64,000 nt of DNA from Jatrophihabitans telluris (GTDB taxonomy: Bacteria; Actinomycetota; Actinomycetes; Mycobacteriales; Jatrophihabitantaceae), in the NCBI RefSeq assembly GCF_023516435.1, contig NZ_CP097332.1, forward strand, positions 2,976,001 to 3,040,000. Reading direction: 5' to 3'. Numbering within the stretch: the stretch's first letter is position 1; each line of letters starts with the position of its first letter. Below are positions 2-27,957 of this stretch, piece by piece. The notes under the pieces were generated by a model, which saw only the letters and a list, made by a program, of their open reading frames with translations, made no database searches and was not told where the DNA came from. A program made the position numbers and the translations under genes.

Positions 2-1069
2 TCGCCTGCTAAACACCTGCTCGCCGCAGGGTGGGTCGTGTTCTCCAGCCTCATGGCTGCCCTCATGTACCTGCTCCCGGGTGAGGAGACCATTCCGTAC
101 CACCTCATCTGGGCCAGTTTCGCTCTGCTGTACGGGCTGTATCGCTGGTCGACGGGACTCACCTGGCTGGTCTTCAGCATCATCACCCTCGTCACCGGCA
201 TCGCGCTGGTCCGGCACGCCCGCAGTGGCGTGATCGGCTGGGAGGAATGCACGGAGATCGTCCTGATGGGCGTGCTCGTCGCGCTGCTCATCTGGCACGT
301 CAAGCGGTTCCAGGCCGCGCAGGATCGGCTGAACGAGCTGCGCGAGAGCGAACGCACCAAGGCCGAACACCGCGATGTCGCCGCCCGATTCGGTTCGCAC
401 GAGGTGCGGACCCGGTTGACGATCGCCCGCGGCTTCGCCGAGTTGATCCGCGACAAGACCACCGACGAGACCACCCGAGCCGATGCCGCTGTCGTGGTCA
501 GCGAACTCGACAAGGCCACCGCCATGACGACCAAGCTGCTGACCCTGGTCCGGGCCGAAGCCCCGTCCGAACGGTTGCCCATCGACGTCGTCACCCTCAT
601 CGAGACCATCTCGCGCCGGTGGGCGGCCACCGTCGACCGGGACTGGAAGACCGACGTGCACCTCGGGCGAATGCTGGCCGATTCCGAGCGCCTGGAAGCA
701 GCACTGGACTGCCTGGTCGAGAATGCGGTGAAGTTCACCGAACCTGGCGACTCGATCCTGCTGTCGGTGACGGCCGATGGCGAGGATGTGCTTATCGCCG
801 TTGAGGATTCGGGCCTCGGCATCCCTCGCGCCGACCTCAATCGGGTCACCGAGATCTTCCAGACCGGCAGCGCGGCCGGCAGTCGCGGCGGCAGCGGCCT
901 GGGCCTGTCGATCGTGCGCACCATGGTCGAATCACGCGGCGGCCAGCTCGAGTTGTCCAGCACCGAAGGCAACGGCACCCGGGTTGCGATGCGCATCCCA
1001 GGAGCGCACGCCGAACGCCGAACGGCCGTTCCGTTGCCGCTCAACGTGCGCGTTCCCGCCTCCGGCTGA
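2..1069 (+). CDS. Membrane sensor histidine kinase, 5' end cut by window
   Basis: The frame is open to the window edge. Residues encoded before the GTG at 38 already form part of a hydrophobic segment, so the true start probably lies upstream. Three or four membrane segments come first, then a HisKA helix with the phospho-acceptor His encoded at 398-400 in the motif SHEVRTRL; the usual Pro after RT is Arg. The HATPase_c domain follows, with N-box ENAVKFT, G1 DSGLGIP and G2 GSGLGLSIV. It should autophosphorylate and pass phosphate to a response regulator, presumably encoded upstream outside the window. The ligand is unknown. It may regulate the secreted copper-protein cluster that follows, but this is only inferred from position. 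Function is sure, start is not. Confidence 0.85.
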   Translation, partial: SPAKHLLAAGWVVFSSLMAALMYLLPGEETIPYHLIWASFALLYGLYRWSTGLTWLVFSIITLVTGIALVRHARSGVIGWEECTEIVLMGVLVALLIWHVKRFQAAQDRLNELRESERTKAEHRDVAARFGSHEVRTRLTIARGFAELIRDKTTDETTRADAAVVVSELDKATAMTTKLLTLVRAEAPSERLPIDVVTLIETISRRWAATVDRDWKTDVHLGRMLADSERLEAALDCLVENAVKFTEPGDSILLSVTADGEDVLIAVEDSGLGIPRADLNRVTEIFQTGSAAGSRGGSGLGLSIVRTMVESRGGQLELSSTEGNGTRVAMRIPGAHAERRTAVPLPLNVRVPASG

Positions 1070-1226
1070 TCCTTCCGGCGAGGCAGGCGCGCCGCGAATG
1101 TGCGGTTTCGACCAACAGCAAATCGCCGACAACTGGCCAGTCGTGTCGAAACGCCCATTCGGTTACATCGGCCGTGGGCATTTTCGCCTTGCGTACAAGG
1201 GAATCGTTCACCTGCATTACACGACA

Positions 1227-1251
1227 TGACAGCGGAGTGACGGCGCTGTCA
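1227..1251 (+). terminator. Hairpin after the kinase gene, probable terminator
   Basis: An 8-bp perfect inverted repeat (TGACAGCG / CGCTGTCA, 9-nt loop) is followed by the pyrimidine-rich run TCTTCCTTTT. It lies in the 278-bp gap between the kinase and the giant surface protein. A terminator fits the T-rich tail. A dyad operator for the downstream cluster is the alternative. The remainder of 1070-1347 shows only the ribosome binding site of the next gene. Confidence 0.45.
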
Positions 1252-1347
1252 TCTTCCTTTTGCCGCCGCTTCCCACCCCGCACAGTTCGCTCCAGAACTC
1301 TGCGCCCATGTCCAGTGGCGCGGATCGGGGAGAGGAAGGGCCTAGTC

Positions 1348-4300
1348 GTGAAGTCACATCCGACCAGCCTGATGCGATTCGCCAAGGCCGCCCTCGCGGC
1401 CACTCTTGTTGTCGCCGCGGTGCAATCGATGCAGCTGAGCAAGGCCGTCAAGGCGCAGGCCGCCGACGCGCCCGGCAGCATCACCCTCTCGGTGGCCAGC
1501 GCGAAGACCGTCGGCGGGGTGAGCACCGTCGGTGACCCGATCACCTCGTACAAGTGGATCGTCAACCTCGACGACACCGGCAACCCAGGCACGATCAGCA
1601 ACCAGGGCACCGGCCAGTGCCTGCCCTCGACCGCTCAAGGCGGCTCGACCGACCCCAACTACGCCGACACCTGCCAATGGCCCTCGGTCCGGGTCACCTC
1701 AGGGTTCGCACCGATCGTGGCCCAGGGCACCCAGGACGACCTCAACGCCACGAAGGCGCTGGCCGATCTGCCCGTCGGCAAGTACCTGATCTCGGTCACC
1801 TCGGACGGCTACAAGATCGACGGGCAGCACTTCACGGTCACCTCCGGCAGCAGCCAACTGGTCAAGGTCGCCATGAACGCCACTCCCCTGCCGCTGACCA
1901 CCCTGCGCCTGCAGGTCTTCAACGACAACGCTCCGGTCGATGCGACCTACGAGGTGGACGCCGAGCGCGGCCTTCGCGGATTCACCGCCACCCTCACGGA
2001 CGTGTTCGGCCTGGTCAGCACGGACTACTACGGCAACGCGCTGTGCACCAAGTACCTGCACGACGCGGCCGGGCACATGACCTTCACCGGCACCAAGCCC
2101 GACATCGACCCGACCTCGACGGGTAAGTGCGTCAGTGACTCCACCGGGCAGATCGTGATTCCGAACCTGGGACCGAACCGCTTCGCCGCCACGGTCGCGC
2201 CGCCCGTGAGCCAGACCGGCCAGTGGGTGCAGACCACCACCCTCGAGGGTGGTCACGACCACGACATCTGGTCGCAGGAAGGCGCCACAGGCTACGACAC
2301 CGAGCAGACCAAGGGTGCCGAACTGGTTCCGTCCGTGCAGTTCGGCTTCGTGCGCAAGCTACCGTCGGTGATCGCCCGCGGAGCAGCGGCCGCCACCGGC
2401 TCGATCACCGGAACCGCCATCGCCGGATTGCCCTACATCGGTGGGCAGAACGGCCAGGTCTCCCCGGAGACCGGCCTGGCCGGGGTGAAGAGCGGCGGAC
2501 CGATCCCCAACGCCTGGGTCGCGCTGTCGGACCTCGGCGCCGGTGACGCGCAGGTCTACACCGCTCAAACCGACGGCGCCGGCAAGTTCACCATCCCGCA
2601 CGTACCCAACGGCAGTTACCAGCTGTCCATCTGGGACGACGACCAGGACTACATCCTGTGGAGCTTCAACGTCGACGTCGCCAACGGCCTGCCCACCGAC
2701 GTCGGCAACAAGATCATCGTCGGCTGGTTCAGCCACGTGTACGGCAAGGTGTTCATCGACTCCAACGGCAACGGCAAGATGGATCCGGGCGAGAAGGCCG
2801 TGCCTCAGTTCGGACTCACGGTGCGCGAGCGCGACAACACGCTCATGGACCAGGCGACGAACACCGTTTCGACCAACGACAGCGGGTACTACGACATCCG
2901 CGAGGCCTACCCGCTGGGCAAGTGGCTCATCCTCGAAGGCTTCAACACCCGTTACCAGACAACGGGAATCACCTACAAGGCGGAGAACGAGACCAAGTCC
3001 ACCACACAGCTGGGCAGCCTCGTCGACATCAACTTCCTGCCGATCATCGGCCTGGGCGGCGAGATCGACTGGGGGGTGCAGCCCTACGCGGCCGGCACGA
3101 ACGGCGGCATCGTGGGAACGGTCAGCTATGACACGACCCGCAACGAGCTCGACCCGGCCGACGCGGTCAGCGAGAGCTACCAACCCGGCATCCCGAACGT
3201 CAAGGTGCACCTGTACGTCCCGGTCGCCTGTGACGCCACCACGCCGGCCGACCACTGCCGGCAGGGTTACCAGCTCAACGACGACGGATCGATGAAACGC
3301 GGTCCACAGGTCGCCGACACGTACACCTCCGAACAGTGGGCTCCGCCCAAGGGGTGCACGGCACGGCAGTACAACGGCCAGCCGCTGACCGATCAGCAGG
3401 CGCTGCCGGCGTTCGGCACGACGGCCAACGCGCTCTGCGTCGAGGCGCCGATGATGGGGATGCAGGTCGGTGCCAGCGACTCCGCCGGCGGCTCGCAGAC
3501 CGTCAACGGCAACTACGGCTTCGGGACGTCCGACATCAATCTGTACCCGCCGGGCAATCCGAAGAACCCCGCGCCGAACCACGACCTGGCGCTGTACGCC
3601 AACATGGCCGACAACGGCTACCACCCGCAGGACCTCGCTCCGCTGGACTACCTGGTGGGCGTGGACATTCCCAACGACCCGGTCGACGGCAAGCCGATGT
3701 ACAAGGTGACCACCGAGGCCGACGTCAACGTCTTCTCCGGCGACAGCTACGTACCCCAGGAGAACTACCCGCCCGCCAGCCAGGCCGTGGCCAACCAGCA
3801 GGACCAGGGTGCGCAGCTGAACCTGCCCACTCCGCCCTCACAGCCACCGTCCCAGCAGGCCGGCATCATCTCGCCCTGCGCAGGTTCCCTGCACACCGTG
3901 ACCGTCACCAACCCGGACTTCCTGGCCGCCGGCGGATCACCGTTCGAAGGCCAGCAGCGCCCGTACTGCACGGACAAGCTCGTCACCGTGCGCACCGGCC
4001 AGTCGACTGCACCGAACTTCAACCTCTACACCGACGTCCCGATCCCCACGCACTTCTGGGGCCTGACCCTCAACGACCTCGGGCTCTCGCTCGACAAGCG
4101 CAGTGTCAACTTCGGTGAGGCCCAGGGCCTGCCCTACGTCCCGGTCGGTCTCTACGACTGGAGCGGTCGGCTGACCTACACGACGCACACCGATTTCAAC
4201 GGCCTGTACGAGGCGCTGGTGCCTTCCACCGACACCTACAACTGCCCCGTCCCGGCCGGACCCTGCCCGAACATGTATCGCTTCGTGGGCAACGATCCCG

Positions 4301-6666
4301 GCGCGTCCAACGCACCGAACGCCGACTACAACCCGAGATTCCGCACCATCGCCACGAACTTCCAGGCGTGGCCGGGTCAGTACACGGTGACGGACGAGGC
4401 ACCGACCCAGGTGGCCACGACCGCGTTGGCTCCCGACACGACCACCGTCAACCCGACCCAGTGCGATCTCGGACCGAACACCCCGCAGTTGCTCGCCGTC
4501 GACCGTCCGTTCGTGCGGCGCAGCGACGCCAACCGAACGCTGACCATCAAGGGCTTCGGCTTCGGGGCGGCCCGGGGAACGCTCACCCTCGGTGGCGTCA
4601 CGCTCGGGACCACGGCGGCAAGCTGGACCGACACCCAGATCGTGGCCACCCTGCCGACCGGTACGGCGCTGCCGACGGGTGCCCTGCCCTTGAGCATCAC
4701 CCGGTCTGATGGTCGGGGCGGCTTCAACACCCTGACCATCCAGAGCCTCGGCAACTACTCGCAGAACTCCGCCGGTGACAACGCGTCCAACCCTCGCGTC
4801 GTCGAGGTCGGGCCCGGGGCCAAGTCGGCGCAGACCTTCGCGCGCTACAGCACCATCCAGGCCGCGCTGGAGGCCGCCCGCCCGACTCGGCAGGCACCGT
4901 TCTGGGTCGTGGTGGTCTACCCCGGCACGTCCACGAACCTCAATCCGCAAGGCCAGTACGACGAAAACGTGATCGTCCACCACCGCGTGCACATCCAGGG
5001 CGTCGGTCCGGGTGGATTCCAGCCCGACGGAACGTTCGTACCCGGATCGATCATCGACGGGTCGGGCTTCAACCCCGACAACCCGTCCGGCCTGAACTGG
5101 ATCGCGCTCCTGTCGTCGCTGCGCTACAGCGGGAACCCGGCGGTACCGGACGCCGCGGCGGTCACCGTGCTCGACGATCCGGCCGTGACGAACGGAATCC
5201 TCGACCCGAACTACCGGCTGACCTTCGACGGCTTCACGGTCACCGGTGGCGCGCAGTCGGACTTCCCGGCCAACATCAACGAGCTCACCGGCGGGATCAA
5301 GACCCCGTACGGGGCGGCGGGCGCGCTGGTGACGCAAGGCGGCGGGATCTACCTGCACAGCAACGTCCGCAACATGCAGATCACCGACAACATCATCCGC
5401 GGTAACGGCGGCTCCTACGGCGGCGCGGTTCGCGTCGGCACCCCGTACGTCAGTGGGAACAACAACACCGACCTACGGCTGGCCAACAACCAGATCCGCG
5501 ACAACGGCGGGACGAACCTGGCCGGCGGGGTCGGGCTGTTCGCGGGCAGTGACGGCTACGTCGTCGATCACAACGCTCTGTGCGGCAACTTCTCCGCCGA
5601 GTACGGAGGCGCGATCTCGGCCTTCGGCTACCAGGAGGCGGCCAGCGGCACGCAGTCCAAGGGCGGCACGATCACCAACAACCGCATGTGGTTCAACGCC
5701 TCCTACGACGAGGGCGGCGCGGTCATGATCGCCGGTGAACTGCCGGCCGATCCGACCGGGTTGTCGCAGGGCACCGGCCGGGTGCTGATCGACTCCAACG
5801 TCATCCAGGCCAACCTGGCCAACGACGACGGCGGCGGCATCCGGCTGCTGCAGGTGACCGGCTCCGCGGTCGGCAACCGTAACCAGGCCGAGAACCAGAC
5901 CATCACGATCAGCAACGACACGGTGGCCAACAACGTCTCGGCTCACGAAGGCGGCGGTATCGCCCTGGACGACGCTCCGTTCGTGCGGATCGTGAACACG
6001 ACGGTGACCAAGAACCTGACCACGGCCACGGCCGTGACCAGCGACGGCTCGCCGGCGCCGGCCGGCTTGTCGACGGCCACCAACAGCGATCCTCTGCAGG
6101 CCCAGCTGACCAAGCTGAACAACACCGGGGTCAACACCACGACGTTCAGCAAGCCCACGCTGCTCAACGACGTCTTCTGGGACAACCGAGCCGGTAACTT
6201 CGACGGCGGCGTGGTGTGCGGCATCGACTCGGTGACCTGCCCGGGAATCGTCAACTGGGACATGGGTGTAACCGACGACCAGAGCGCCAGCCTGGCCCCG
6301 ACCCACTCGGTGGTCCAGGACCTGACGCAGGTGACCAACGACGGCACGCTCAGCCAGAACGACCCGTCGTTCGTGTCCAACTACAACGTCGACGTCAACA
6401 TCCTGGCCTCGCGGACCTACCCGGCCTTCCGGCAGGCGGTCATCGTGGCCCAACTGTTGCCACCTTCGCTGATGGGCGATTACCACCTGAGCTCCACGCT
6501 GTCCTCGGCCTACGGGCTGGGTGCGGCCAACACCACGGTGACCTGGGGCGCCGGCGCCGGCCGGTGGACCTACGTCGTCAGCGCTCCCAGCGCCGACATC
6601 GATCGCCAGCCCCGCCCGGGAACCGGCCGGCGCTGGGATGCCGGTTCCGATCAGTTACTTCCCTGA
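1348..6666 (+). CDS. Giant secreted SdrD-like/IPT/beta-helix surface protein
   Basis: The 1772-residue protein starts at a GTG eight bases after AGAGGAAGG; the open frame reaches further upstream without a better site. A Sec signal peptide occupies about residues 1-38. Two carboxypeptidase-regulatory or SdrD B-like beta domains lie near 380-450 and 460-560, the second with a Ca-binding-like DSNGNGKMDPGE loop. An IPT/TIG domain lies near 1065-1125. From about 1165 to 1720 runs a right-handed parallel beta-helix of the pectin-lyase/NosD type with repeated Asn-rich GG-turn units. There is no LPXTG motif or C-terminal membrane segment, so it is probably released or held non-covalently. No catalytic residues were recognised; a scaffold or polysaccharide-binding role is inferred. 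It heads the multicopper oxidase cluster. Confidence 0.85.
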   Translation: MKSHPTSLMRFAKAALAATLVVAAVQSMQLSKAVKAQAADAPGSITLSVASAKTVGGVSTVGDPITSYKWIVNLDDTGNPGTISNQGTGQCLPSTAQGGSTDPNYADTCQWPSVRVTSGFAPIVAQGTQDDLNATKALADLPVGKYLISVTSDGYKIDGQHFTVTSGSSQLVKVAMNATPLPLTTLRLQVFNDNAPVDATYEVDAERGLRGFTATLTDVFGLVSTDYYGNALCTKYLHDAAGHMTFTGTKPDIDPTSTGKCVSDSTGQIVIPNLGPNRFAATVAPPVSQTGQWVQTTTLEGGHDHDIWSQEGATGYDTEQTKGAELVPSVQFGFVRKLPSVIARGAAAATGSITGTAIAGLPYIGGQNGQVSPETGLAGVKSGGPIPNAWVALSDLGAGDAQVYTAQTDGAGKFTIPHVPNGSYQLSIWDDDQDYILWSFNVDVANGLPTDVGNKIIVGWFSHVYGKVFIDSNGNGKMDPGEKAVPQFGLTVRERDNTLMDQATNTVSTNDSGYYDIREAYPLGKWLILEGFNTRYQTTGITYKAENETKSTTQLGSLVDINFLPIIGLGGEIDWGVQPYAAGTNGGIVGTVSYDTTRNELDPADAVSESYQPGIPNVKVHLYVPVACDATTPADHCRQGYQLNDDGSMKRGPQVADTYTSEQWAPPKGCTARQYNGQPLTDQQALPAFGTTANALCVEAPMMGMQVGASDSAGGSQTVNGNYGFGTSDINLYPPGNPKNPAPNHDLALYANMADNGYHPQDLAPLDYLVGVDIPNDPVDGKPMYKVTTEADVNVFSGDSYVPQENYPPASQAVANQQDQGAQLNLPTPPSQPPSQQAGIISPCAGSLHTVTVTNPDFLAAGGSPFEGQQRPYCTDKLVTVRTGQSTAPNFNLYTDVPIPTHFWGLTLNDLGLSLDKRSVNFGEAQGLPYVPVGLYDWSGRLTYTTHTDFNGLYEALVPSTDTYNCPVPAGPCPNMYRFVGNDPGASNAPNADYNPRFRTIATNFQAWPGQYTVTDEAPTQVATTALAPDTTTVNPTQCDLGPNTPQLLAVDRPFVRRSDANRTLTIKGFGFGAARGTLTLGGVTLGTTAASWTDTQIVATLPTGTALPTGALPLSITRSDGRGGFNTLTIQSLGNYSQNSAGDNASNPRVVEVGPGAKSAQTFARYSTIQAALEAARPTRQAPFWVVVVYPGTSTNLNPQGQYDENVIVHHRVHIQGVGPGGFQPDGTFVPGSIIDGSGFNPDNPSGLNWIALLSSLRYSGNPAVPDAAAVTVLDDPAVTNGILDPNYRLTFDGFTVTGGAQSDFPANINELTGGIKTPYGAAGALVTQGGGIYLHSNVRNMQITDNIIRGNGGSYGGAVRVGTPYVSGNNNTDLRLANNQIRDNGGTNLAGGVGLFAGSDGYVVDHNALCGNFSAEYGGAISAFGYQEAASGTQSKGGTITNNRMWFNASYDEGGAVMIAGELPADPTGLSQGTGRVLIDSNVIQANLANDDGGGIRLLQVTGSAVGNRNQAENQTITISNDTVANNVSAHEGGGIALDDAPFVRIVNTTVTKNLTTATAVTSDGSPAPAGLSTATNSDPLQAQLTKLNNTGVNTTTFSKPTLLNDVFWDNRAGNFDGGVVCGIDSVTCPGIVNWDMGVTDDQSASLAPTHSVVQDLTQVTNDGTLSQNDPSFVSNYNVDVNILASRTYPAFRQAVIVAQLLPPSLMGDYHLSSTLSSAYGLGAANTTVTWGAGAGRWTYVVSAPSADIDRQPRPGTGRRWDAGSDQLLP

Positions 6667-6767: not shown

Positions 6768-8144
6768 GTGACCGAGAATCCCCTCCCGCGCGGCCTGAGC
6801 CGACGGACCTTCCTGGCCGGCGGAGCAGGCGTGCTCGGAGCAGCCGCCGTAGGCACCCGCCTGACCAGTGCGCATGCGGCGACGCCGATGGTCGCCGCCG
6901 TGCCGAAGCCGACCGACCCCAGTTCGGTGAACGTGCACCTCGTGGGCACCGACGGCTGGGTCGCGATGCCCGGCGCTCCGGACGATGCGCCGTTCTTTCC
7001 CGACACGTTGGCACCGTCGCCCTTCAACACCTACGTCTTCGGCTTCCGCAATGTCAGCGGATTCAGCCCGAGCCAGATCGCGGCCGAACGCGGCAAGGCT
7101 CAGATCAGTGCACCGATGATGTACTTCGACGAAGAGGACGACATCTTCATCACCCTGACCAACCTCGGGCTGTCCCAGCGACCCGATCTCTACGACGGGC
7201 ACACCCTGCACTGGCACGGTTTCGTCAACGCGATCCCGCTTTTCGACGGAGTGCCCGAGCTGTCGCTGGCCGTGCCGATCGGGCGCGATTTCACCTACTT
7301 CTACAAGCCCCACGACGCCGGCACCTACATGTATCACTGCCACTTCGAGGACGTCGAGCACGTGCAGATGGGCATGACCGGCATGGTCTTCGTCCGTCCG
7401 CGGCAGAACCAGACCAAGCACGGCGTGGACCCCGCCTTCGCCGCCGGGAGGCCCACCCCATGGGGCGGCACCGTGGCCAGCACCATCCCGCCGGGCAAGT
7501 ACGCCTACAACGACTACGACGGCTCCACCCGCTACGACCGGGAATTCGCGTTCATGGTCACCGAGCTCTGGTCGGCCGCCCACTACCGCGACGCCCACAT
7601 CCAGGTCAACGACTGGACGGACTACGACCCGAGCTTCTGGTTGCTCAACGGGCGCGCCTACCCCGACACCGTGGCCCCGAACTCCGGCACGGCCGGCGCG
7701 AACGTGTTCCCCTCCGGCGCCCTTCCGGTGCTGGGTGCGGACCCGGCCGCGACGGCCAATCGCCTGCAGTACCAGCCGATATCTTCGTTGATCAGCTGCG
7801 AGGTGAACAACAAGGTCCTGCTGCGGCTGTCCAACCTCGGCTACCAGAATCACGCCTTCACCGTCGACAACATCGACCTGAGCGTGATCGCCAAGGACGG
7901 CAGCCTGCTCAAGGGCCGCGACGGAACCGTCAACTACCTCACGACCAACACGGTCGATCTCGGTCCCGGGGAAAGTCGCGATGTCATCTTCACCGCGCCG
8001 TCGCAACCGGGCCGTTACCTGCTCTATGACCGTCACTACTCCTACCTGAACAACGGTGGGGGCGCCGGCTACGGCGGCATGGTCACCGAAATCCGGGTCG
8101 GCGCCGCCGGCAGCCTCGGCGCCCAGTCCCAACCCAACCACTGA
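6768..8144 (+). CDS. Tat-exported multicopper oxidase, type 1 copper-bearing subunit
   Basis: The 458-residue protein starts at GTG after GAGGAGAG. A Tat signal (SRRTFLAGG) precedes two cupredoxin domains. Domain 1 has the trinuclear-site motif LHWHG (His148, His150) and a combined type 1/type 3 motif YHCHFEDVEHVQMGM (His190, Cys191, His192, His198, Met203). In domain 2 the expected HPxHG and HxH motifs are reduced to single histidines (His362 in NHAF, His423 in DRHY). The type 1 site thus sits in domain 1, as in two-domain multicopper oxidases. The protein may need a partner to complete the trinuclear cluster; the next gene has the missing motifs. Expected role is extracellular one-electron oxidation of a metal or organic substrate with O2. 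Substrate unknown. Confidence 0.85.
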   Translation: MTENPLPRGLSRRTFLAGGAGVLGAAAVGTRLTSAHAATPMVAAVPKPTDPSSVNVHLVGTDGWVAMPGAPDDAPFFPDTLAPSPFNTYVFGFRNVSGFSPSQIAAERGKAQISAPMMYFDEEDDIFITLTNLGLSQRPDLYDGHTLHWHGFVNAIPLFDGVPELSLAVPIGRDFTYFYKPHDAGTYMYHCHFEDVEHVQMGMTGMVFVRPRQNQTKHGVDPAFAAGRPTPWGGTVASTIPPGKYAYNDYDGSTRYDREFAFMVTELWSAAHYRDAHIQVNDWTDYDPSFWLLNGRAYPDTVAPNSGTAGANVFPSGALPVLGADPAATANRLQYQPISSLISCEVNNKVLLRLSNLGYQNHAFTVDNIDLSVIAKDGSLLKGRDGTVNYLTTNTVDLGPGESRDVIFTAPSQPGRYLLYDRHYSYLNNGGGAGYGGMVTEIRVGAAGSLGAQSQPNH

Positions 8145-8167
8145 CAACGCATCGTCGAGGAGACGCC

Positions 8168-9472
8168 ATGAAACATGTGCAGAAGCCCTGGCTTCGCCGG
8201 ATGGCCCTGGTCGCCGCGATTGCGTCGACGGTGGCCACTGTCGTCTCGGTCGCGCCGGTGTCGGCGGCGACCACGGGCAACAGCGAAGGTATGCAGTGCG
8301 AGACCAACTCGCGCTCGACGTTCAATCTCACCGCCGCCGACGGATACATCTCCACACCGGACGGCAACTCCATCTACATGTGGAGCTACGGCGACGCCAC
8401 CAGCGGGTTCCAGTTGCCTGGGCCGACTTTGTGCGTCACCGAGGGTGCCACGGTCACCGTCGTGCTGCACAACAGCCTTCCCGAGCCGACGTCGATCCTG
8501 TTCCCCGGGCAGTCCGGGGTGCTCGCCGACGGCAAGGCCGCGCAGCCGCAGTACACCACCGACGCGGCGCCGGCCCTGACCTCGCTCGTGCAGTCGGCCT
8601 CGGCCAACGGCGGCTCGGTGACCTACCAGTTCACCGCCGGGACGCCGGGAACCTACCTCTACACCAGCGGTACCGACGTGAAGAAGCAGCAGCAGATGGG
8701 CATGTTCGGCGCCCTGGTCGTTCGCCCGTTGGGCTCGCCGGTCAATCAGGTCAACCGCCGCACCGACTCGGCCTTCGCACCGGGCAAGGAATACCTGTTC
8801 CTGCTCTCGGAGGTGGACCCGGACGTGCACCTGGCGGTCGAGCGCAACCAGCCGATCGACTGGTCGAGCTATCGGGCCCGGTACTTCATGATCAACGGCC
8901 GGTCGATGCCGGACACGCTCGCGCCCAACAACGCCTCGTGGCTGCCGAACCAGCCCTACGGCGCGCTGGTGCACGTCAAGCCGTGGGACGCGGCCAACAA
9001 CCCGTTGCCGGCCACGATCCGCTATCTCAATGCCGGGACCGTGAACTACCCGTTCCACCCCCACGGCAGTGATGAGCGGGTAATCGACAAGGACGGCCAT
9101 CCGCTGGTCGGCCCGAGCGGGCAGGACCTGAGCTACCTCAAGTACGACCTCGACGTCGGTCCCGGGCAGACCCTGGACACCTTGATGGACTGGCACAGCG
9201 AATACGACGTGACCAACAAGCCGATTCCCACCCAGCTGCCCACGATCACCGACCAGTTGCTGGTCGGTACCGACACCTGGTTCTCCGAAAGCGGCTACCT
9301 GGGGACGAAGAATCCGACTCCGACCACCATCACCAACAACAACGAGTGCGGCGAGTACTACCACATCGCGCACAGCCACGCCTTGCAGCAAGCCACCAAC
9401 TACGGAGCGACCTTCGGGGGAATGATGACGCTGTTCCGCATCGACCCGCCGTCCGGTTGCCCCACCAAGTGA
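8168..9472 (+). CDS. Secreted multicopper oxidase paralog with only domain-2 ligands
   Basis: The 434-residue protein lies 23 bp after the previous oxidase and has a Sec-type signal (about residues 1-35). Two cupredoxin domains align with the preceding protein. In domain 1 the copper motifs are lost: HWHG is replaced by FPGQ, and YHCH...MGM by YTSG...QMGM. Domain 2 keeps FHPHG (His297, His299) and HIAHSH (His399, His402, His404), typical trinuclear-cluster ligands. Alone it lacks a type 1 copper site and cannot be a complete oxidase. It is best read as a partner subunit of the preceding protein or as a copper-binding paralog. Confidence 0.8.
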   Translation: MKHVQKPWLRRMALVAAIASTVATVVSVAPVSAATTGNSEGMQCETNSRSTFNLTAADGYISTPDGNSIYMWSYGDATSGFQLPGPTLCVTEGATVTVVLHNSLPEPTSILFPGQSGVLADGKAAQPQYTTDAAPALTSLVQSASANGGSVTYQFTAGTPGTYLYTSGTDVKKQQQMGMFGALVVRPLGSPVNQVNRRTDSAFAPGKEYLFLLSEVDPDVHLAVERNQPIDWSSYRARYFMINGRSMPDTLAPNNASWLPNQPYGALVHVKPWDAANNPLPATIRYLNAGTVNYPFHPHGSDERVIDKDGHPLVGPSGQDLSYLKYDLDVGPGQTLDTLMDWHSEYDVTNKPIPTQLPTITDQLLVGTDTWFSESGYLGTKNPTPTTITNNNECGEYYHIAHSHALQQATNYGATFGGMMTLFRIDPPSGCPTK

Positions 9473-9483: not shown

Positions 9484-12400
9484 ATGAGAGTTCGTATCGC
9501 CAATCGCCGTTCGCCCCGGCGGGTCACCGCCGCGGCGCTCGGGACCACGATGGCCGCGCTGTCGCTGGTCGCGTTGCAGGCCGGCATCGCCGGAGCCGGG
9601 GCCGCTGAGCTGCCGGCTACGGCCCGGGTCACGGCGGCCGGGCTTCGTCCGGCCATCGCGCCGGTACTGGGAGCGACGACGCCGACCTCGGTCGGGCGCC
9701 TGACCCCGCGCGGTTGCACCGGCACCGGCACCGTCGCCTGCGACCTGTACGCCAAGGCCGGTTCCACCACCATGCCCGGCACCGTCGCGGCCATCCCGAT
9801 CTGGGGATTCGCCACCGACGCCACCAGCGCGGTCACCGCGCCGGGGCCGGTACTGGTGGTCAACCAGGGCGATCGCGTCACCATCACCCTGCACAACGGG
9901 TTGAGCGGACAGTCGATGTCGCTCGCGCTGCCCGGCCAGCAGGGCGTCAGCGGCGCCGGCGACGACCTCACCGGGGCGGCCGCCGGTTCCACCGCGCAGT
10001 ACACGTTCACGGCCTCTCGTCCGGGGACCTTCACCTACGAGGCCGGTCACACCCCGCAGGGGGCGCGCCAGGTGGCGATGGGTCTGGCCGGCGCGCTGAT
10101 CGTGCTGCCCAGCACGGCCGGTTCGGCCTACGGCAATCCAGCCGACTACCCGAACACCACCTATGACGACGACGCGGTCCTCGTGCTCAGCGAGATCGAT
10201 CCCGCGCTGAACACCAGCCCTGACCCGCTGGCCTTCGACATGCGCAACTTCGCGCCGAAGTACCGGCTGGTCAACGGTCATCCGTTCCCATCCGGCACGA
10301 GTTCGATCGCGACCGATTACGGCCACAAGGTGCTGGTGCGCTACGTGAACGTAGGCCAGCAGACGCATCCGATGGGCGCGCTCGGCACGACCCAGCTGGA
10401 AGTCGCGCAGGACGGCCATCCGGCGCATTACGCCACCACCGTCGCGGCCGAGTCGGTCGACCCGGGCACCACCGTGGACTCGATCATCACGATGCCGGGC
10501 AACCGGGCGATGGACGGCACGGTCAGTGCCACCACCCCGACGAAGGTCGGCCTCTACGAAACCAACGGCAGCCTGGACAACGCCGGCGCACTGACCGGCG
10601 ACACCCCGGCCCAGGTCGGATTCGGCGGCATGCTCGTCTTCCTCGACACCCAGGCGCCGGTCAACCCCGGTGACTTGACCGGTCCGACCTCGAAGGCCCT
10701 CACGGTCGGCCCGAATCCGTCCAACGCACTGTCCGACGTCACGGTCACCGCCACCGTCAGCGACGCGGCCACCGGCTCCAGCGCGATCGCCGCCGCCGAG
10801 TACGTCATCGACGACGACGCCGCATCACCCATCGCGGCCGCCAGCGGGGTACCGATGACCCTTGCCGCCACGGGCCAAATTACGACGACGGCCACCGGGA
10901 CCATCCCCGCCAGCGTGCTGGCGGACCCGACCTTCGCCGCGGGCAAGCACATCGTCTACGTTCGCGCCAAGGACGTCCAGGGCAACTGGGGCGCCGTCGG
11001 TTCGGTCGTTCTCAACGTTCCCAAGACGGGACCGGCCACGACCGGTGGGTCACTCACGCCGAACATCACCAACGGCACGGTTCCCATCGACATCTCCGCC
11101 ACCGGTGACGACTCCGGCGCCGGCGGGATCATCACCGACGCCGAGTACTTCCTCGACACCCCACCGGCGAGCTCTGACTACGGTCACGGCACAGCGATGT
11201 CCATCAACCGCCAGGCATCCGTGGTGTCGGTGGACGCCACCTTCGATCCCGCGAGCCTGGCGACACCACTGGCCGAAGGCGTGCACCACGTCTACGTCCA
11301 CGTCAAGGACGACCTGCTGGGCTCGGGACTGTGGGGTCCGGTGCTCGACCTGCCGCTGTCCATCGACCGGACCGGACCGGTCACCCAGGGCGCGACCCTG
11401 AGTCCACCGGCCACCAACGGGATCCAGGGCGATGCCAGCAACCCCGGCTACCTCAAGCTGACCGCTCAGCTCACCGATCAGGGTGTGCTGCCGCAGAACA
11501 TCGTCGACGGCGAAGCCTTCTTGTCGACGGTGAAGGCCGACGGCACCGGCCTGCAGCTGATCGCCATGGACGGCAAGCTCGACAGTCCCGACGAGCACGT
11601 CTATGCGCTCATCCCGCTGTCGCAGATCAAGGCCTACAAGGACGGCACCCTCAAGGTGTTCGTGCACGGCCAGGACGCCGCCGGCAACTGGGGTGACGCC
11701 ACTGCCAACCCGGCGACGCTCGTCATCGACCGGATCGCGCCGAAGCTCACCGGACTCAGCGGCGTGCTCGGACCGTTCGGGCAGCCCGGGGTCGCGTTGA
11801 GTTCGGCCGTCACCGAGGCCAACACCCTCAGCGCCGCCGAGGTATGGACCACCAATACCGATCCGGGAGTCGGCAAGGCGACGCCGGCGACCCTGTCGGT
11901 GAGCAACGGAGTGGTGACCGCCCTGGCCTCGATGCCCGCCACCGCGGGGGCATACAACTTCCATCTGCGGGTCAGGGATCAAGCCGGAAACTGGAGCAAC
12001 GCGGTTCAGGCCACCGTCTCGGTGTTCAACAGCGCGCTGCAGAACACCACTGGCTGGAGTCGTAGCGGGTCCCCGTTGCCGAGCGTCTCGGCTGCGGCGA
12101 AGCTGCCGAACAACGACGAGCCCGGTTCCACCTTGGGCCTGCCGGTGAACGGGTCCAACACCGCCAGCGCGCAGTTCCTGGCCAGCGCGGTGTCCTCGGC
12201 TCAGGGCTACCACGCCCGGTTCCGGTTCGCGGCGAACACGCTGAACTCGCAGGGTGCCACCAACACCGTGACGATCTTCAGCGCCACCACCGCGACCGGT
12301 CTCACCAGCAACACCGCGACCAACGACGTGTTCTCGCTGCAGTACCAGGGCAGCGGGAACACAGCCCAGATCCGCGGTGTGCTCGGCACGGCCACCACGG

Positions 12401-12633
12401 CCTGGATCACCATCGGTACCGGGCCGCACACGATCGGGCTGGACTTCAAGGGAGGAGCCACGTCCAGCCTCACGCTGACCATGGACGGAACCGCTCTCGG
12501 CGTGACCGGTGGAGCCACCACAGCCATCCGCTCCAACCGGCTGGGCTTCGTCCGCAACGGTGGCACCGGGCTCACCAGCACGGGAACGGCGTACTTCGAC
12601 AGCTTCTTCTCGGTCTTCTCGGTGACGCCGTAA
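9484..12633 (+). CDS. Secreted degenerate cupredoxin protein with Ig-like and LamG-like C terminus
   Basis: The 1049-residue protein starts at ATG 9484 shortly after a GAGGG. A signal peptide covers about residues 1-40. Residues about 75-400 form two cupredoxin domains homologous to the two preceding proteins, but nearly all copper ligands are gone; one THPMG (His295) replaces HPHG and no HCH motif exists. Several Ig-like repeats with a recurring DRxxP or D-x-TGP linker follow, then a concanavalin/LamG-like domain from about residue 860. An adhesive or assembly role is more likely than oxidase activity. It is the last gene before a strong hairpin, completing a set of three paralogs. Confidence 0.75.
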   Translation: MRVRIANRRSPRRVTAAALGTTMAALSLVALQAGIAGAGAAELPATARVTAAGLRPAIAPVLGATTPTSVGRLTPRGCTGTGTVACDLYAKAGSTTMPGTVAAIPIWGFATDATSAVTAPGPVLVVNQGDRVTITLHNGLSGQSMSLALPGQQGVSGAGDDLTGAAAGSTAQYTFTASRPGTFTYEAGHTPQGARQVAMGLAGALIVLPSTAGSAYGNPADYPNTTYDDDAVLVLSEIDPALNTSPDPLAFDMRNFAPKYRLVNGHPFPSGTSSIATDYGHKVLVRYVNVGQQTHPMGALGTTQLEVAQDGHPAHYATTVAAESVDPGTTVDSIITMPGNRAMDGTVSATTPTKVGLYETNGSLDNAGALTGDTPAQVGFGGMLVFLDTQAPVNPGDLTGPTSKALTVGPNPSNALSDVTVTATVSDAATGSSAIAAAEYVIDDDAASPIAAASGVPMTLAATGQITTTATGTIPASVLADPTFAAGKHIVYVRAKDVQGNWGAVGSVVLNVPKTGPATTGGSLTPNITNGTVPIDISATGDDSGAGGIITDAEYFLDTPPASSDYGHGTAMSINRQASVVSVDATFDPASLATPLAEGVHHVYVHVKDDLLGSGLWGPVLDLPLSIDRTGPVTQGATLSPPATNGIQGDASNPGYLKLTAQLTDQGVLPQNIVDGEAFLSTVKADGTGLQLIAMDGKLDSPDEHVYALIPLSQIKAYKDGTLKVFVHGQDAAGNWGDATANPATLVIDRIAPKLTGLSGVLGPFGQPGVALSSAVTEANTLSAAEVWTTNTDPGVGKATPATLSVSNGVVTALASMPATAGAYNFHLRVRDQAGNWSNAVQATVSVFNSALQNTTGWSRSGSPLPSVSAAAKLPNNDEPGSTLGLPVNGSNTASAQFLASAVSSAQGYHARFRFAANTLNSQGATNTVTIFSATTATGLTSNTATNDVFSLQYQGSGNTAQIRGVLGTATTAWITIGTGPHTIGLDFKGGATSSLTLTMDGTALGVTGGATTAIRSNRLGFVRNGGTGLTSTGTAYFDSFFSVFSVTP

Positions 12634-12639
12634 CCACCG

Positions 12640-12673
12640 GGGTGGGTCGCGGCGGCGGCGCTGCGACCCACCC
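12640..12673 (+). terminator. Strong GC-rich hairpin after the third oxidase paralog
   Basis: Perfect 11-bp arms (GGGTGGGTCGC / GCGACCCACCC) enclose a 12-nt loop directly after the stop codon at 12633. There is no U-tract, as is common for actinobacterial terminators. It may end the oxidase transcript or only attenuate read-through into the copper genes 76 bp further on. Confidence 0.6.
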
Positions 12674-12748
12674 GTCGGCACACCGCGGAGATCGCTCTGA
12701 GACACCGCACAGCCAAGCGGCCTCACGCGCCGCACCAAGGGGGAAACA

Positions 12749-13264
12749 ATGATCACGAGCACGCCGACCGTGGGACAGCCTGCTCCCGCGGACCGGATCA
12801 GATCATGGATGGGTGGACGCTGGAGCACGCTGTTGCTCGCGCTCGCGGTGACCGTCGTCCTGAGCGCCGGCGGGATCGGCCTGCGCACGGTCGCCGCGCA
12901 TCGGCACAGCAACGCCAGCGCCGTGGTTCCGCAGAGCCAGGCCATGCAGCAGAGCCTGGGCATCCGGTTCTCCCGGGTTGCGGTGGTGGCCGACGGCGGG
13001 CTCATCACCCTGTCCTACGTGGTGCTCGATCCGGAGAAAGCCCAGCGTTTCCAGGCTGATTCGGCCCATCCGCCGAAGCTGACGAGCGAGTCGCGCTCGC
13101 TGAGCACCACCCGGGTTTCGCTGATGAAGCAGGGCCACACCCTCACCGCCGGGCAGACCTACTACCTGGTGTACGAGAACACCCGGGGCGCGATCCGTCC
13201 CGGTGAGAAGGTCACGATCACCGACGGCTCGCTGACGCTGGCCCATTTCCCGGTCCTGCGATGA
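12749..13264 (+). CDS. Membrane-anchored small protein of unknown function, coupled to copCD
   Basis: The 171-residue protein starts at ATG after AAGGGGGAAAC. It has one N-terminal membrane segment (about residues 27-48) and a predicted extracytoplasmic beta-rich domain. There are no Cys or His clusters that would mark a metal site. The family is not recognised. Its stop overlaps the start of the CopC-CopD gene (ATGA), so translation is coupled, which suggests an accessory role in extracytoplasmic copper handling. Confidence 0.7.
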   Translation: MITSTPTVGQPAPADRIRSWMGGRWSTLLLALAVTVVLSAGGIGLRTVAAHRHSNASAVVPQSQAMQQSLGIRFSRVAVVADGGLITLSYVVLDPEKAQRFQADSAHPPKLTSESRSLSTTRVSLMKQGHTLTAGQTYYLVYENTRGAIRPGEKVTITDGSLTLAHFPVLR

Positions 13265-15213
13265 CGCTGGCCCGCCACCCCGTCGCCCCCGCTCGGCACG
13301 CGGCGCGTCCGCGAACACCAGGGTCGCGGGCCCTGGGCCTATTGGCGAGTGCGGCGGCGATCCTGCTCACGGCGATCACGCTGACGCTGCTGTTGCCGGG
13401 CGCCCCCGCCGGGGCGCACGCGTACCTCGAGTCGAGCAATCCCGCCGACGGGGCGGCACTGTCGGCGGCACCGCACGGCATTCGACTGTCCTTCAGCGAA
13501 TCCGTCGTCCTCGGTGCCAGCAGCGTGACCCTCGTCGACGGCGACGGTAGGCGGGCGCCGGTGACCAACCTGCGAATCGAGGCCGCCGATCCGAGCGAGA
13601 CGGAAGCCCCGGTCGCCATGGTGGCAGACGTGCCGGTGTTGGCCGCCGGGGTGTACCGGCTGTCGTGGCAGACGCTGTCGAGCGATGATCTGCACCGCAC
13701 CCACGGGGTGATCGTCTTCGGTGTGCGTACCCAGGTCGCCGCGGCCGGACAGCACGAGCCGCTCCCCCGGCCGGTTGAGATCCTGGCCCGTTGGCTGATG
13801 TTCGCGGCCACCGCCCTGGTGATCGGCGCCGGCCTCGCTCGCCGCGCCTACCGGGACGAGGACTCGGTCACCGCCCGCCGCAGCGCCCGAGCGGTGCTGC
13901 TGATCGGGGCCGGGACGGGGGCGGGCGCGGCCCTCGCCCTGCTGCTCTACCAGGCGGTGTCGGCTTCCGTGCCGATCGGCGACGCGCTGACCGGGCGGTA
14001 CGGCCTGGGCTGGTACGTCCGGCAAGCCGGCTTCGTGGCGGTCGCGCTCAGCGCCCTGTTCGCCGGGGACCGTCCTCGCGAGGAACGGGCCCGCCCGGCC
14101 CGCATCGGGCTGCGATCGGTGAGTGTTGCCGGCCTGGCGGGCGTCCTGCTCGGCAGTGCCCTGACCGGGCACGGATCAGCCGGCGGCCCGACCCGGCTGA
14201 CGATGGATGCCCTTCATCTCGGGGCGGTCTCCTGCTGGATCGGCGGTCTGGCCGTGATCCTGTGGTGCGGTCGCGGGGCCGAGCGCCGAGCCGCGCTGGT
14301 GCGCTTCGGACGCCCGGCCGGCTGGAGCGTCGCGTTGACGGTGGCCACCGGCCTCTACCTGGCCGGCGCGGAGACGGTGTCGCTGGACGCCATCGCGCGC
14401 ACGTTCTACGGACGGACCCTGGTCCTCAAGGTGGCCCTGGTGGTGATCGTGGGTGTGCTGGGGGGCCTCAACCATCGACGCCTGCGCCGCCGGAGCGGGA
14501 CACCGCGGGCGACGGTGCTCATCGAGGCCGCGGTCGGGACCCTGGTGGTGCTGCTCGCCGCGGTGCTGACCAGCAGCCAACCGGCGCGGGAATCGATCTA
14601 CCTGGCGCCGCCGGCCCCTTCGGTGGCGGTGGACCAGGCTCGCGCCGACCTTCAGCAGACGTTGACCGTCAAGCCGAATCAGCCCGGGCAGAACGTCGTT
14701 TCCGCGGAGGTGTTCCAGACTCGTCGCCCGGCTCCCGGGCCGATCACCACGGTCCGGATCGCGCTGCGCCGGTCGATTCGCGACAGTTGGTCACCGGCCG
14801 GCGCGGCACAGGCGGCCGGTGACGGGCGTTGGTCCCTGCCTATCGAGCTGTCCACGGCCGGTGCGCTGCAGATCCAGGTCACGACCGTACGCGCCGGGCT
14901 GCCCGCCGTGGTGACCGAATTCCCCTGGACCGTCGGCGTGATCCCGGGAAGCCGACCGAGCGTGCTGCTGTCCGATCGGGCCAGCGGTCCGGGTCTGCGT
15001 ACGGCCGGATTCCTCGCGGTCCTGCTGATCGGCGGCGTTGCCGTCCTACTCGGCGTCAGCGGCGGCCACGGTGGCGACCTGAGGGCCCGGGCCGGCGGTG
15101 CTCGCGCCGGCGATGGCGGGACCGGCCCCACAGCGCCGGAACCCGGGCCCGACGGCGCGACTCAGGACGGGCCCGCGGTCCTGGCCCTGTCCGGCAAGAC
15201 GGGTGCGGACTGA
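13261..15213 (+). CDS. CopC-CopD fusion copper protein
   Basis: The 650-residue protein begins with a signal or anchor segment ending at about residue 52. Cleavage would expose His53 (AGA|HAYLES), the N-terminal copper(II) ligand expected for CopC. The CopC domain spans about 53-155 and has LHRTHG where the conserved DxH region lies. CopD follows with about eight membrane helices (170-430), then an extracytoplasmic YtkA-like beta domain (about 455-560), another membrane helix and a low-complexity tail. Such fusions (YcnJ-like) bind and transport copper. Here it probably supplies copper to the exported oxidases upstream. It overlaps the preceding gene by 4 bp. Confidence 0.88.
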   Translation: MTLARHPVAPARHAARPRTPGSRALGLLASAAAILLTAITLTLLLPGAPAGAHAYLESSNPADGAALSAAPHGIRLSFSESVVLGASSVTLVDGDGRRAPVTNLRIEAADPSETEAPVAMVADVPVLAAGVYRLSWQTLSSDDLHRTHGVIVFGVRTQVAAAGQHEPLPRPVEILARWLMFAATALVIGAGLARRAYRDEDSVTARRSARAVLLIGAGTGAGAALALLLYQAVSASVPIGDALTGRYGLGWYVRQAGFVAVALSALFAGDRPREERARPARIGLRSVSVAGLAGVLLGSALTGHGSAGGPTRLTMDALHLGAVSCWIGGLAVILWCGRGAERRAALVRFGRPAGWSVALTVATGLYLAGAETVSLDAIARTFYGRTLVLKVALVVIVGVLGGLNHRRLRRRSGTPRATVLIEAAVGTLVVLLAAVLTSSQPARESIYLAPPAPSVAVDQARADLQQTLTVKPNQPGQNVVSAEVFQTRRPAPGPITTVRIALRRSIRDSWSPAGAAQAAGDGRWSLPIELSTAGALQIQVTTVRAGLPAVVTEFPWTVGVIPGSRPSVLLSDRASGPGLRTAGFLAVLLIGGVAVLLGVSGGHGGDLRARAGGARAGDGGTGPTAPEPGPDGATQDGPAVLALSGKTGAD

Positions 15214-15249
15214 CCGCACCGTGGTTCGCTGATCCCCCTCAGCGGCCCC

Positions 15250-15287
15250 GGCCGGCCGGCGACCAACCCGTACGTCGCCGGCCGGCC
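15250..15287. terminator. Bidirectional terminator between convergent operons
   Basis: Perfect 14-bp inverted repeat (GGCCGGCCGGCGAC / GTCGCCGGCCGGCC, 10-nt loop) between the stop codons at 15213 and 15324. Its place between convergent genes and its very stable stem support a terminator acting in both directions. Confidence 0.75.
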
Positions 15288-15323
15288 CCTTTCGTGACGT
15301 GCATCCGGTATGGGCGACGATCG

Positions 15324-15545
15324 TCAGGATCCGGCGGGATCTGTCTCCAGGAACAGGGCCTGGCGGGGGCACGCGTTGACCGCTTTGCGGGCGGCACGAA
15401 CGTCCGAGGCGTGCTCGAGTTCGCCGTGGACGATGGGAAACCCCCAGCTGTCAAGGGTGATCTGCCGTGGAGCCAGATGCGCACAGAGGGCCACCCCGTC
15501 GCAGGCCACCGGATCCAGGCGCAACCGGCGCGGGCTCTCAGTCAT
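15324..15545 (-). CDS. Small three-cysteine ferredoxin
   Basis: The 73-residue protein has only three conserved cysteines (Cys15, Cys21, Cys59 in the CP motif), the pattern of a [3Fe-4S] ferredoxin of the actinobacterial type. ATG 15545 is chosen because it gives an ATGACTGA overlap with the upstream gene and starts just before the conserved core. It is the last gene of a leftward operon with a NuoF-like protein and a ferric-reductase-like membrane protein. It probably exchanges electrons with the NuoF-like subunit in the cytoplasm. Confidence 0.85.
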   Translation of the reverse strand: MTESPRRLRLDPVACDGVALCAHLAPRQITLDSWGFPIVHGELEHASDVRAARKAVNACPRQALFLETDPAGS

Positions 15546-16800
15546 GCAGACAGCCCTGGGACTGCAGATGCCGGCGGACATCCGGGGCGAAGACCTGCAA
15601 CGCGCTGCGGATCAATCGCACGGCACCGTCGGGGTGGTGGCAGGCCCCGCGGCCGTCGATCTCGGCCAGGAAGCGTTCGAGCTTGGGCAGATCCCGCCGC
15701 CGGGGGCGGCCGTCGGCCAGCACCTGCATGAGATCGGCGACGGCGGGCAGCCCGAACAGGCACGGTCCGCACTGGCGGGCGCTGGCCTGCGCCAGGTACC
15801 GCACGATGGTTGCGGTGTAGCGCAGCCCGCATCGGCGCTCGTCCAGGGCGAGCATCACCCCCGCGCCGAGCACCGGACGCGGCACGCCGAATGGAGTCGA
15901 GGTACCGGTCGGGGTGCCGCCGAGCGTCTCGAAGCGATCACCGGACCACCAGGTCCCGCCGTAGCCGCCGAGCAGCACGGCCTGTGGGCGCACGGACACC
16001 CCAGCCCGGCTCAGTGCCCGGCTGAGCCGGTCCGTTGGCGTCAGCTCGACCACTGTGCGGCGCTGGCCGTGCGCGACGGTGACGAGGTATCGGTCAGGTT
16101 GCTGTCCGCGGGCCAGCAGGCCGATGCACGCCAGGGTCTCCACGTTGTGCACGAGGGTCGGACGCCCGTGCACGCCCGCAGTGGTAGCCGGCACTCGGCG
16201 GAAGGACGGCAATGCGCGGCGACCGGACAGGGAGTTGACGATCACGCTGGACTCCCCGGACAGGTAGTGCTCGGCCGCCAGCTCGATCCGGACCGCGGGC
16301 TCGGAGGGCAGGTGGGCACGCCGTTCGGCCAGCGCCCGGGTCACCGCCTGGCGGCTGGACGTGGCCGATTCGTGCAACCACACCACCGTTTCTTCCGCGC
16401 CGACGGCTTCGGCCGCGCTGGCCAGCCCGTCCAGGACCAGGTGCGGTCTCAGCTGCAGCAGCGCGGCGTCCTTCGCGCTCAACGGCTCGCTCTCGGCCCC
16501 GTTCGCGACGACCATCCCACCCAGACCCGCACGCAGGAAGTCCTGCCACTTTCGGGCGACCGGAAAAGCGGCCCCGCCCCGTCCGGCCAGCTCGTGACCG
16601 TTCACCGCGTCGAGCAACTCGTCTCCGGCCAGGCCGGTCGCACTCGGCCGCGGGCCGAGCTGGGCACCGTGGGCCGCCAGGTCCTGCGCACCCGGTGCGC
16701 GGACGAGATCGTCGCTGTGCGGGCCGAACACCGCGAGACCGTCGATGAGAACGTCCTCAGGCCCGTCGGGGGCCTCTACCAGCTGCAGCCGGGCGCTCAC
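15538..16800 (-). CDS. NuoF-like flavin/Fe-S oxidoreductase (SLBB protein)
   Basis: The 420-residue protein resembles the NADH-binding subunit of complex I. It has a GRGGAAFPVARKW-like flavin/NAD loop, a central Rossmann-like region, an SLBB-type region with the motif GGYGGTWW, and a C-terminal cluster motif QCGPCLFG...ACHHPDG. The canonical NuoF pattern CGxCxxC is reduced to CGPCxxG, so one cluster cysteine is missing. GTG 16800 overlaps the upstream stop (GTGA). The frame continues further upstream, but that part is antisense-like sequence over the membrane gene. It likely links NAD(P)H or ferredoxin to the membrane partner. Confidence 0.8.
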   Translation of the reverse strand: MSARLQLVEAPDGPEDVLIDGLAVFGPHSDDLVRAPGAQDLAAHGAQLGPRPSATGLAGDELLDAVNGHELAGRGGAAFPVARKWQDFLRAGLGGMVVANGAESEPLSAKDAALLQLRPHLVLDGLASAAEAVGAEETVVWLHESATSSRQAVTRALAERRAHLPSEPAVRIELAAEHYLSGESSVIVNSLSGRRALPSFRRVPATTAGVHGRPTLVHNVETLACIGLLARGQQPDRYLVTVAHGQRRTVVELTPTDRLSRALSRAGVSVRPQAVLLGGYGGTWWSGDRFETLGGTPTGTSTPFGVPRPVLGAGVMLALDERRCGLRYTATIVRYLAQASARQCGPCLFGLPAVADLMQVLADGRPRRRDLPKLERFLAEIDGRGACHHPDGAVRLIRSALQVFAPDVRRHLQSQGCLHD

Positions 16801-17477
16801 CGGGCCAGCTCCGCTACCCGGTCGGCCGGAGTCTTGGCGGCGTAGCGTCCCACCGCGACGATCAGCACCAATCCCGCGGTCACCAGGTACATCGCCGTCA
16901 GCGCGGCCGTGTCGCCACCGCCGAAAACCCCGTGCAGCCAGACGAGGATCAGGCTGATCGAGGACACCTTGTGCAATGGCCACCACAGCCAGCGCGGCAC
17001 CCTGGTGGCCAGCGCGGCCGTGACTCCGGCCAGCAGCCCGCACCACAGGCCGACCAGGCCGAGGGTGGTCGCCACCGGTCGGTAACTGGCTCCCATCGGC
17101 AGGAGTGCGCCGCGCCATCCGACGCCGGCGTAGCGATCCATCCCCAGCACCACAATGTGCAACGCGATGAAGGCCAGCGTGAACACGGCGAGCGCGACAT
17201 GCAGGCGGATCCGGTTGGCGTTGCTGGGTCGCTGAATCCTCGACCGCCACGGATGGGACAGCACCAAGCCCATGAGCACGAGAGTCACCAGCAGCAGGTA
17301 GGCCGTGACGCCGGAGGCTCGGCCGATGATCCAGGGGGCCATGCGGTCACCCGCGACGGACTGGGCGACCCAGCCCACGATGGCCAGCGTGATCGCCGCG
17401 CTCAGCGCTACGGCCAGGATCAGCCCGAGGCGGCGCACGATCCGCCGCGGCGCCGCTCCGGCCTGCGTTACGGCCAT
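16797..17477 (-). CDS. Ferric-reductase-like transmembrane haem protein
   Basis: The 226-residue protein has about six membrane helices with paired histidines suited to haem b ligation (for example LHVALAVF, LHIVVLG, LHKVSS, LHGVFG). This matches the ferric-reductase-like transmembrane domain (PF01794 type) without the cytosolic FAD/NAD module of eukaryotic FRE or NOX proteins. The start ATG 17477 overlaps the ApbE stop by 10 bp; no strong ribosome site is visible, consistent with translational coupling. It probably carries electrons from the cytoplasmic NuoF-like/ferredoxin pair across the membrane. Confidence 0.82.
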   Translation of the reverse strand: MAVTQAGAAPRRIVRRLGLILAVALSAAITLAIVGWVAQSVAGDRMAPWIIGRASGVTAYLLLVTLVLMGLVLSHPWRSRIQRPSNANRIRLHVALAVFTLAFIALHIVVLGMDRYAGVGWRGALLPMGASYRPVATTLGLVGLWCGLLAGVTAALATRVPRWLWWPLHKVSSISLILVWLHGVFGGGDTAALTAMYLVTAGLVLIVAVGRYAAKTPADRVAELAR

Positions 17478-25688: not shown

Positions 25689-25700
25689 CTATCGGTCTTC

Positions 25701-27770: not shown

Positions 27771-27775
27771 GGAAG

Positions 27776-27794: not shown

Positions 27795-27890
27795 CTTTGT
27801 TCCTCAAATCGACCCGCGCCCCTCGCGCGCCACCAACTTCGCCGACGCCTGTCTGCGTCACCCCCCGCGATAGCAGACGGCGATACCAGA

Positions 27891-27930: not shown

Positions 27931-27957
27931 ACTCACACTGACGTGCGCTCTCCGGGT

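Follow-up and report, generated by a model that had tools for sequence, protein, structure and literature searches.

Copper ligands divided between adjacent two-domain cupredoxin proteins in Jatrophihabitans telluris: a candidate heteromeric multicopper oxidase

In two-domain multicopper oxidases the ligands of the trinuclear copper cluster (TNC) are described as coming from domain 1 of one monomer and from domain 2 of its neighbour (excerpts of PMC13151041). The present analysis concerns a window of 64,000 nucleotides of the Jatrophihabitans telluris genome (contig NZ_CP097332.1, positions 2,976,001 to 3,040,000), in which three consecutive genes, here named A, B and C and preceded by a gene for a large secreted-type protein, S, encode two-domain cupredoxin proteins that together carry the ligands of such a cluster. 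The best solved relatives of A, which are also the best matches for the profiles and models of A and B, are 3G5W of Nitrosomonas europaea and the metagenomic laccase 2ZWN, both of which we take to be type C oxidases. As in these enzymes, the proteins of the locus have two cupredoxin domains per subunit, the type-1 copper lies in domain 1, and the counterparts of the motifs HTIHWHG and YHCH...EH...GM are present. Known type C oxidases, however, are homotrimers in which one gene gives both half-sites of the TNC, whereas here two genes give them and a third gives none. The two-domain fold is found in each subunit and the type-1 ligands lie in domain 1 of A only, but no subunit holds both half-sites, since domain 2 of A and domain 1 of B are empty; for this reason the putative heteromeric two-domain multicopper oxidase ABC stands formally outside the type C family.

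A second comparison is offered by the six-domain proteins ceruloplasmin, hephaestin and MnxG, which likewise comprise three two-domain units and retain no more than one TNC, although in the prokaryotic six-domain proteins the type-1 site is in domain 2 and domains 2 and 3 enclose the TNC, while here the type-1 site is in the first domain of its unit (as far as the sections of PMC3600357 go). Those proteins are single chains and A, B and C are three separate open reading frames (ORFs), yet with the units taken together one TNC is left among three. In MnxG the whole copper centre lies in one chain, and to our knowledge neither MnxE nor MnxF is a cupredoxin half-site. The Mnx complex of Bacillus resembles the present system in being a multimeric multicopper oxidase complex (PMC5622069, in part), and the outer-surface oxidases OmpB and MofA resemble it in being large extracellular or outer-membrane bacterial enzymes, but the latter are single chains with four motifs, with mofB isomerase and mofC cytochrome c genes in the operon (portions of PMC5566968 and PMC8218464). 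Both Mnx and OmpB/MofA were considered as identities for the locus and set aside as different systems, and passages on Nitrospina multicopper proteins do not describe the present one. No description of a heteromeric two-domain oxidase was found in the titles and abstract openings of the open-licence papers that the searches listed.

Division of the copper ligands between A and B

All three genes lie on the plus strand and their products pass the Pfam cut-off of Cu-oxidase_3. A (6768..8144, 458 aa) has a Tat-like signal and two cupredoxin domains, also matching Cu-oxidase_2 and Cu-oxidase; B (8168..9472, 434 aa) has two cupredoxin domains and a profile match to A; and C (9484..12633), assigned by the column tables and by its clade in the tree, is a two-domain paralog followed by Ig-like repeats whose Pfam matches are below the cut-off. 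Domain 1 of A holds the motifs HTLHWHG and YHCHFEDVEHVQMGM, which by sequence and conservation amount to a complete type-1 site and four TNC histidines: H145 (type 1), H148 and H150 (TNC) at 7200..7217, and H190 and H192 (TNC), C191, H198 and M203 (type 1) at 7335..7376. In domain 2 of A the aligned TNC positions are occupied by T365, D367, Y420 and R422, and H362 corresponds only to the first-histidine, type-1 position. The reverse is seen in B, where the aligned ligand positions of domain 1 read T108, L111, P113, T166, S167, G168, Q174 and M179, and domain 2 keeps a TNC half in H297 and H299 of FHPHG (9056..9064) and H402 and H404 of HSH (9371..9379). The register between A and B was taken from a profile-profile alignment (hhalign probability 100, E 1.2e-41). 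A reading of the window made from sequence alone had described a first protein with full domain-1 motifs and only single histidines in domain 2, followed by a second one without domain-1 motifs that kept FHPHG and HxxHSH; the residues listed here bear out both descriptions, and the case is stronger than that reading made it. The type-1 ligand set H145, C191, H198 and M203 is absent from B and C, and in domain 2 of C no conserved ligand pair was seen in 75 sequences, the last motif region being poorly aligned. Many C (87/104) and A (55/116) sequences have a histidine at the type-1-like first position. The ligand table gives eight TNC-type histidines over A and B, which speak for a putative trinuclear cluster where copper nitrite reductase (NirK) has a catalytic type-2 copper. 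Outside the canonical copper motifs, the interdomain residues H272 and H277 of A (7581-7598) are each kept in 81 of 82 sequences.

This division is conserved across the homologous loci, and it is not due to chance. Of 116 A ORFs, 113 have the complete octet, the exceptions being L031 (H190 to L), the decayed L177 and one fragment in L086, and the quartet of B is intact in 110 of 115 ORFs, with L177 (H299 to D) and fragments in L057 (two), L073 and L175 as exceptions. None of the 116 A ORFs (one with a gap) has a histidine at the four TNC positions of domain 2; no cysteine occurs at the domain-1 positions of B in 115 ORFs, where a single histidine is seen in four, and none at those of C in 104, where at most one histidine is present, again in four. 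Near-copies are counted in these figures, and for five loci the same contig is represented twice; when sequences are thinned to less than 90% identity, 96 A, 95 B and 92 C are left. The same split is found in the divergent members of the proteobacterial draw and likewise in Cupriavidus metallidurans CH34 (L197) and Paraburkholderia largidicola (L198), in the latter of which A, B and C are annotated as "hypothetical protein". In the one strongly decayed copy, L177 (G674 contig 479, minus strand, A at 3006-4259 and B at 1647-3002) both halves have decayed, with the octet of A reading LQRHCRYM (five of eight lost) and one of four ligands lost in B, while A, B and C are still open.

Co-occurrence, gene order and ancestry

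When A was scanned against a collection of genomes from 84,980 species, 293 relatives were found, and the 80 best, representing 79 distinct loci, were retained; these include Actinomycetota, Chloroflexota and one Methylococcaceae metagenome-assembled genome (MAG). Searched independently, A and B were both present in 28 of 966 genomes and neither occurred alone, the sets being identical in each of three draws (3/396, 16/249 and 9/321 genomes), so that the co-occurrence check proposed in the sequence-only reading came out in its favour. Gene order is kept in homologous loci of Actinomycetota, Chloroflexota and Pseudomonadota. Of the 116 loci, 102 contain A, B and C in this order, and the remaining 14 are cut short: the contig ends after A in L066 and L079, and within B, shortly behind it or within C in L032, L036, L060, L073, L077, L168, L171 and L175; only C remains, at a contig end, in L179; L180 covers a small part of the L059 contig, on which C is found; and L090 and L184 are one contig, whose next ORF, cut by the contig end, matches the N-terminal extension of the C protein of L059 at 56-59% identity. 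No ORF among the 116 loci contains two of A, B and C at 120 bits or more. The tree distances of A and B are correlated at 0.93 (102 loci).

A tree built from 29 loci places A, B and C each on one side of a branch (support 100/100, 99/97 and 96/85), and because each forms a single clade, the triplication is older than the spread among phyla. An old gene triplication of a type-C-like two-domain multicopper oxidase is the most likely origin of the three genes. The genome of J. telluris (4.19 Mb, one contig) has three S-A-B-C clusters in total, the two others lying at ~434-443 kb (L007) and ~2557-2571 kb (L008) with the same order S, A, B, C, and their A and B share 47-50% identity with those of the window. 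The paralog C, the scaffold-like S and these two further complete clusters are additions to the sequence-only reading.

The protein S (1174..6666, plus strand, 1830 aa, with a true start that may be 3' of 1174) is of large secreted type and matches Pfam CarboxypepD_reg, SdrD_B, fn3_3 and TIG, and its relatives give weak beta-helix matches in Pfam. Among the 75 loci in which an ORF precedes A, the window included, 73 encode a homolog of S there. In five proteobacterial loci C and S are fused in one ORF of 2560-2755 aa with the S homolog as the C-terminal part (L169:164-8431; L172:11321-19000; L178:3045-11096; L197:14740-22836; L198:14760-22931), and no ORF upstream of A matches S in L169, L172, L197 or L198, L178 beginning within A. 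As read from their sequences, these fusions tie S naturally to the putative complex, and we propose that S may act as a surface scaffold attached via C. A 2347-aa ORF in L164, considered as an S-A fusion, was rejected as a high-GC artefact, since an overlapping ORF in another frame (11906-17500) has the size of S.

Predicted assembly and its alternatives

Tandem read-through chains were given to AlphaFold2 (AF2) with alignments of 32 or 21 rows. The A-B model reached a predicted TM score (pTM) of 0.71 and the ABC model 0.81, values obtained with differing first sequences and alignments. The A-B model superposes on the multicopper oxidase 6vow over 374 of 409 residues at 3.0 Å (model range 46-843), and the predicted placement of A domain 1 and B domain 2 is like that of a multicopper oxidase. 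Foldseek aligned the ABC model with ceruloplasmin over 1362-1381 columns (E 9e-43 to 1e-40), with a whole-chain TM of ~0.2 and a root-mean-square deviation (rmsd) of ~34 Å; given these values, the predicted A-B-C chain is not in ceruloplasmin order. No ceruloplasmin stands among the 50 matches listed in either of two further structure comparisons, lists that exclude nothing. The Foldseek match of the ABC model to the Thermus laccase 2xu9 (target TM 0.69, 750 columns) hints at the same ring order but, with an rmsd of 13.5 Å, was not used.

The reading that we favour, with a probability of roughly three in four, is that the proteins form an obligate hetero-oligomer. This would probably be a pseudo-trimer of A, B and C at 1:1:1, in which domain 1 of A and domain 2 of B enclose a single copper centre and S is attached via C. 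We infer its physical assembly, stoichiometry, copper loading, oxidase activity and anchoring as follows. The three proteins would be exported and form a pseudo-trimer with three inter-subunit interfaces, of which only that of A domain 1 and B domain 2 would keep copper ligands. Electrons from the substrate, a metal ion or a phenol being the candidates, would enter at the type-1 copper of A and pass along the path of C191, H190 and H192 to a TNC formed by H148, H150, H190 and H192 of A and H297, H299, H402 and H404 of B, where O2 would be reduced to water. C would close the ring without copper, and S would probably fix the enzyme to the cell surface or the matrix. With the A1-B2 interface full and B1-C2 and C1-A2 empty, this arrangement would account for the state of all six half-sites, two of them full and four empty, and would explain both why C is present and why A and B decayed together in L177. 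The broader picture of a "ceruloplasmin in three genes", that is, an obligate heterotrimer derived from a homotrimeric ancestor by complementary site loss, with a single A/B TNC, displayed by S, ancient and present in at least three phyla, seems to us somewhat better than an even bet. The sequence-only reading had suggested a hetero-oligomer of 3+3 or similar with an obligate division of ligands; the division between partners is upheld by the co-occurrence, the gene order, the joint decay in L177 and the predicted placement, while the 3+3 stoichiometry appears less likely than 1:1:1, because C, an equally old two-domain paralog, stands after B in every locus that is not cut short (102 of 116), and because the model with C has the higher pTM, albeit from a different first sequence and alignment.

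That A and B alone make the oxidase (A3B3, A2B or AB), C being a separate structural protein, is an unlikely alternative: A and B hold every ligand, and their model without C already superposes in a 6vow-like manner at a pTM of 0.71. Nevertheless, C matches A and B in age and in tightness of linkage, the known trimer needs three two-domain units, and pTM rises to 0.81 once C is included, albeit with another first sequence and alignment. A clearly less probable explanation takes A and B as separate proteins, A as a type-1/type-2 blue copper or nitrite-reductase-like carrier and B as a copper-binding or storage protein; the structure comparison places copper nitrite reductases near the models in fold and the type-1 site of A is complete without a partner, but the four plus four half-site histidines are kept although HxH...HxH would be superfluous for a lone type-1/type-2 protein, and the exact co-occurrence of A and B and their joint decay in L177 also argue against it. 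Least probable, and in our view very improbable, is that the complex is no longer an enzyme and that a surface scaffold retains relic copper sites which only stabilise the A/B contact. Four of six domains are without ligands, large Ig-like and SdrD-type parts are present and the L177 cluster persists with decayed ligands, all of which would suit such a scaffold, but the full type-1 Cys/His/Met set and the eight TNC histidines are strongly conserved across phyla.

Several points weigh against the favoured pseudo-trimer itself. The hetero-oligomer is deduced from sequence and predicted fold. AF2 knows homologous homotrimers and was given few rows, so that contact confidence may be inflated; the A-B pTM of 0.71 is moderate, and Foldseek gives a poor rigid fit of A-B to 6vow (target TM 0.52, rmsd 15.2 Å, 583 columns), while the A-B contact derives from a VIA-align row that gives only the ends of the aligned range. 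The co-occurrence counts are phylogenetically non-independent through kinship, few candidates were scored per genome, and three of the 28 genomes (G000, G420 and G421) were known carriers used as centres. Besides, the A of L031 has leucine for H190 beside an intact B, and the role of C is a proposed one, its divergent proteobacterial forms scoring weakly (~100-170 bits).

Neighbouring genes and implications

The surroundings of the cluster were compared over 82 scanned loci, the window included. Upstream of S lies a sensor histidine kinase gene (38..1069, plus strand; Pfam HisKA and HATPase_c), with related kinases in 33 and a response regulator in 27 of these loci. Downstream of C, also on the plus strand, a small protein with a hydrophobic N-terminus and no Pfam match (12749..13264) is a neighbour in 37 loci, and a CopC-CopD fusion for copper binding and uptake (13261..15213; Pfam CopC and CopD) in 28. 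Past the copper genes, the minus strand encodes a NuoF-like protein (15538-17250; Complex1_51K, NADH_4Fe-4S) and, at 24438-30207, an FTR1-imelysin fusion and a DyP peroxidase resembling EfeUOB iron uptake, which a two-domain peroxidase of catalase-peroxidase size adjoins. Mn(II) oxidation was considered as a function of the putative oxidase and dropped, the single hint being the title of the L071 MAG, which contains "MnB" and "Mn" and is too little.

The permissive Tat-like pattern RRx[FLMI][LIVMFA] is found in 98 of 116 N-termini of A, compared with 13 of 115 for B and 9 of 104 for C. As A is mostly Tat-like and B and C mostly are not, the shared cluster would be completed only after export, and export and copper loading thereby become a question for the cluster shared by A and B. 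The putative copper centre could form only when two different proteins meet, an unusual arrangement, whereas in the known kinds it is formed by identical copies or within a single chain. Ryden and Hunt and Murphy et al. proposed an ancestral six-domain oxidase that had three mononuclear and three trinuclear sites and went on to lose most of them (as outlined in parts of PMC3600357). A, B and C would represent a separate outcome of the same asymmetrisation, reached without gene fusion, and the ABC system would show a route from a symmetric enzyme to an obligate hetero-oligomer.
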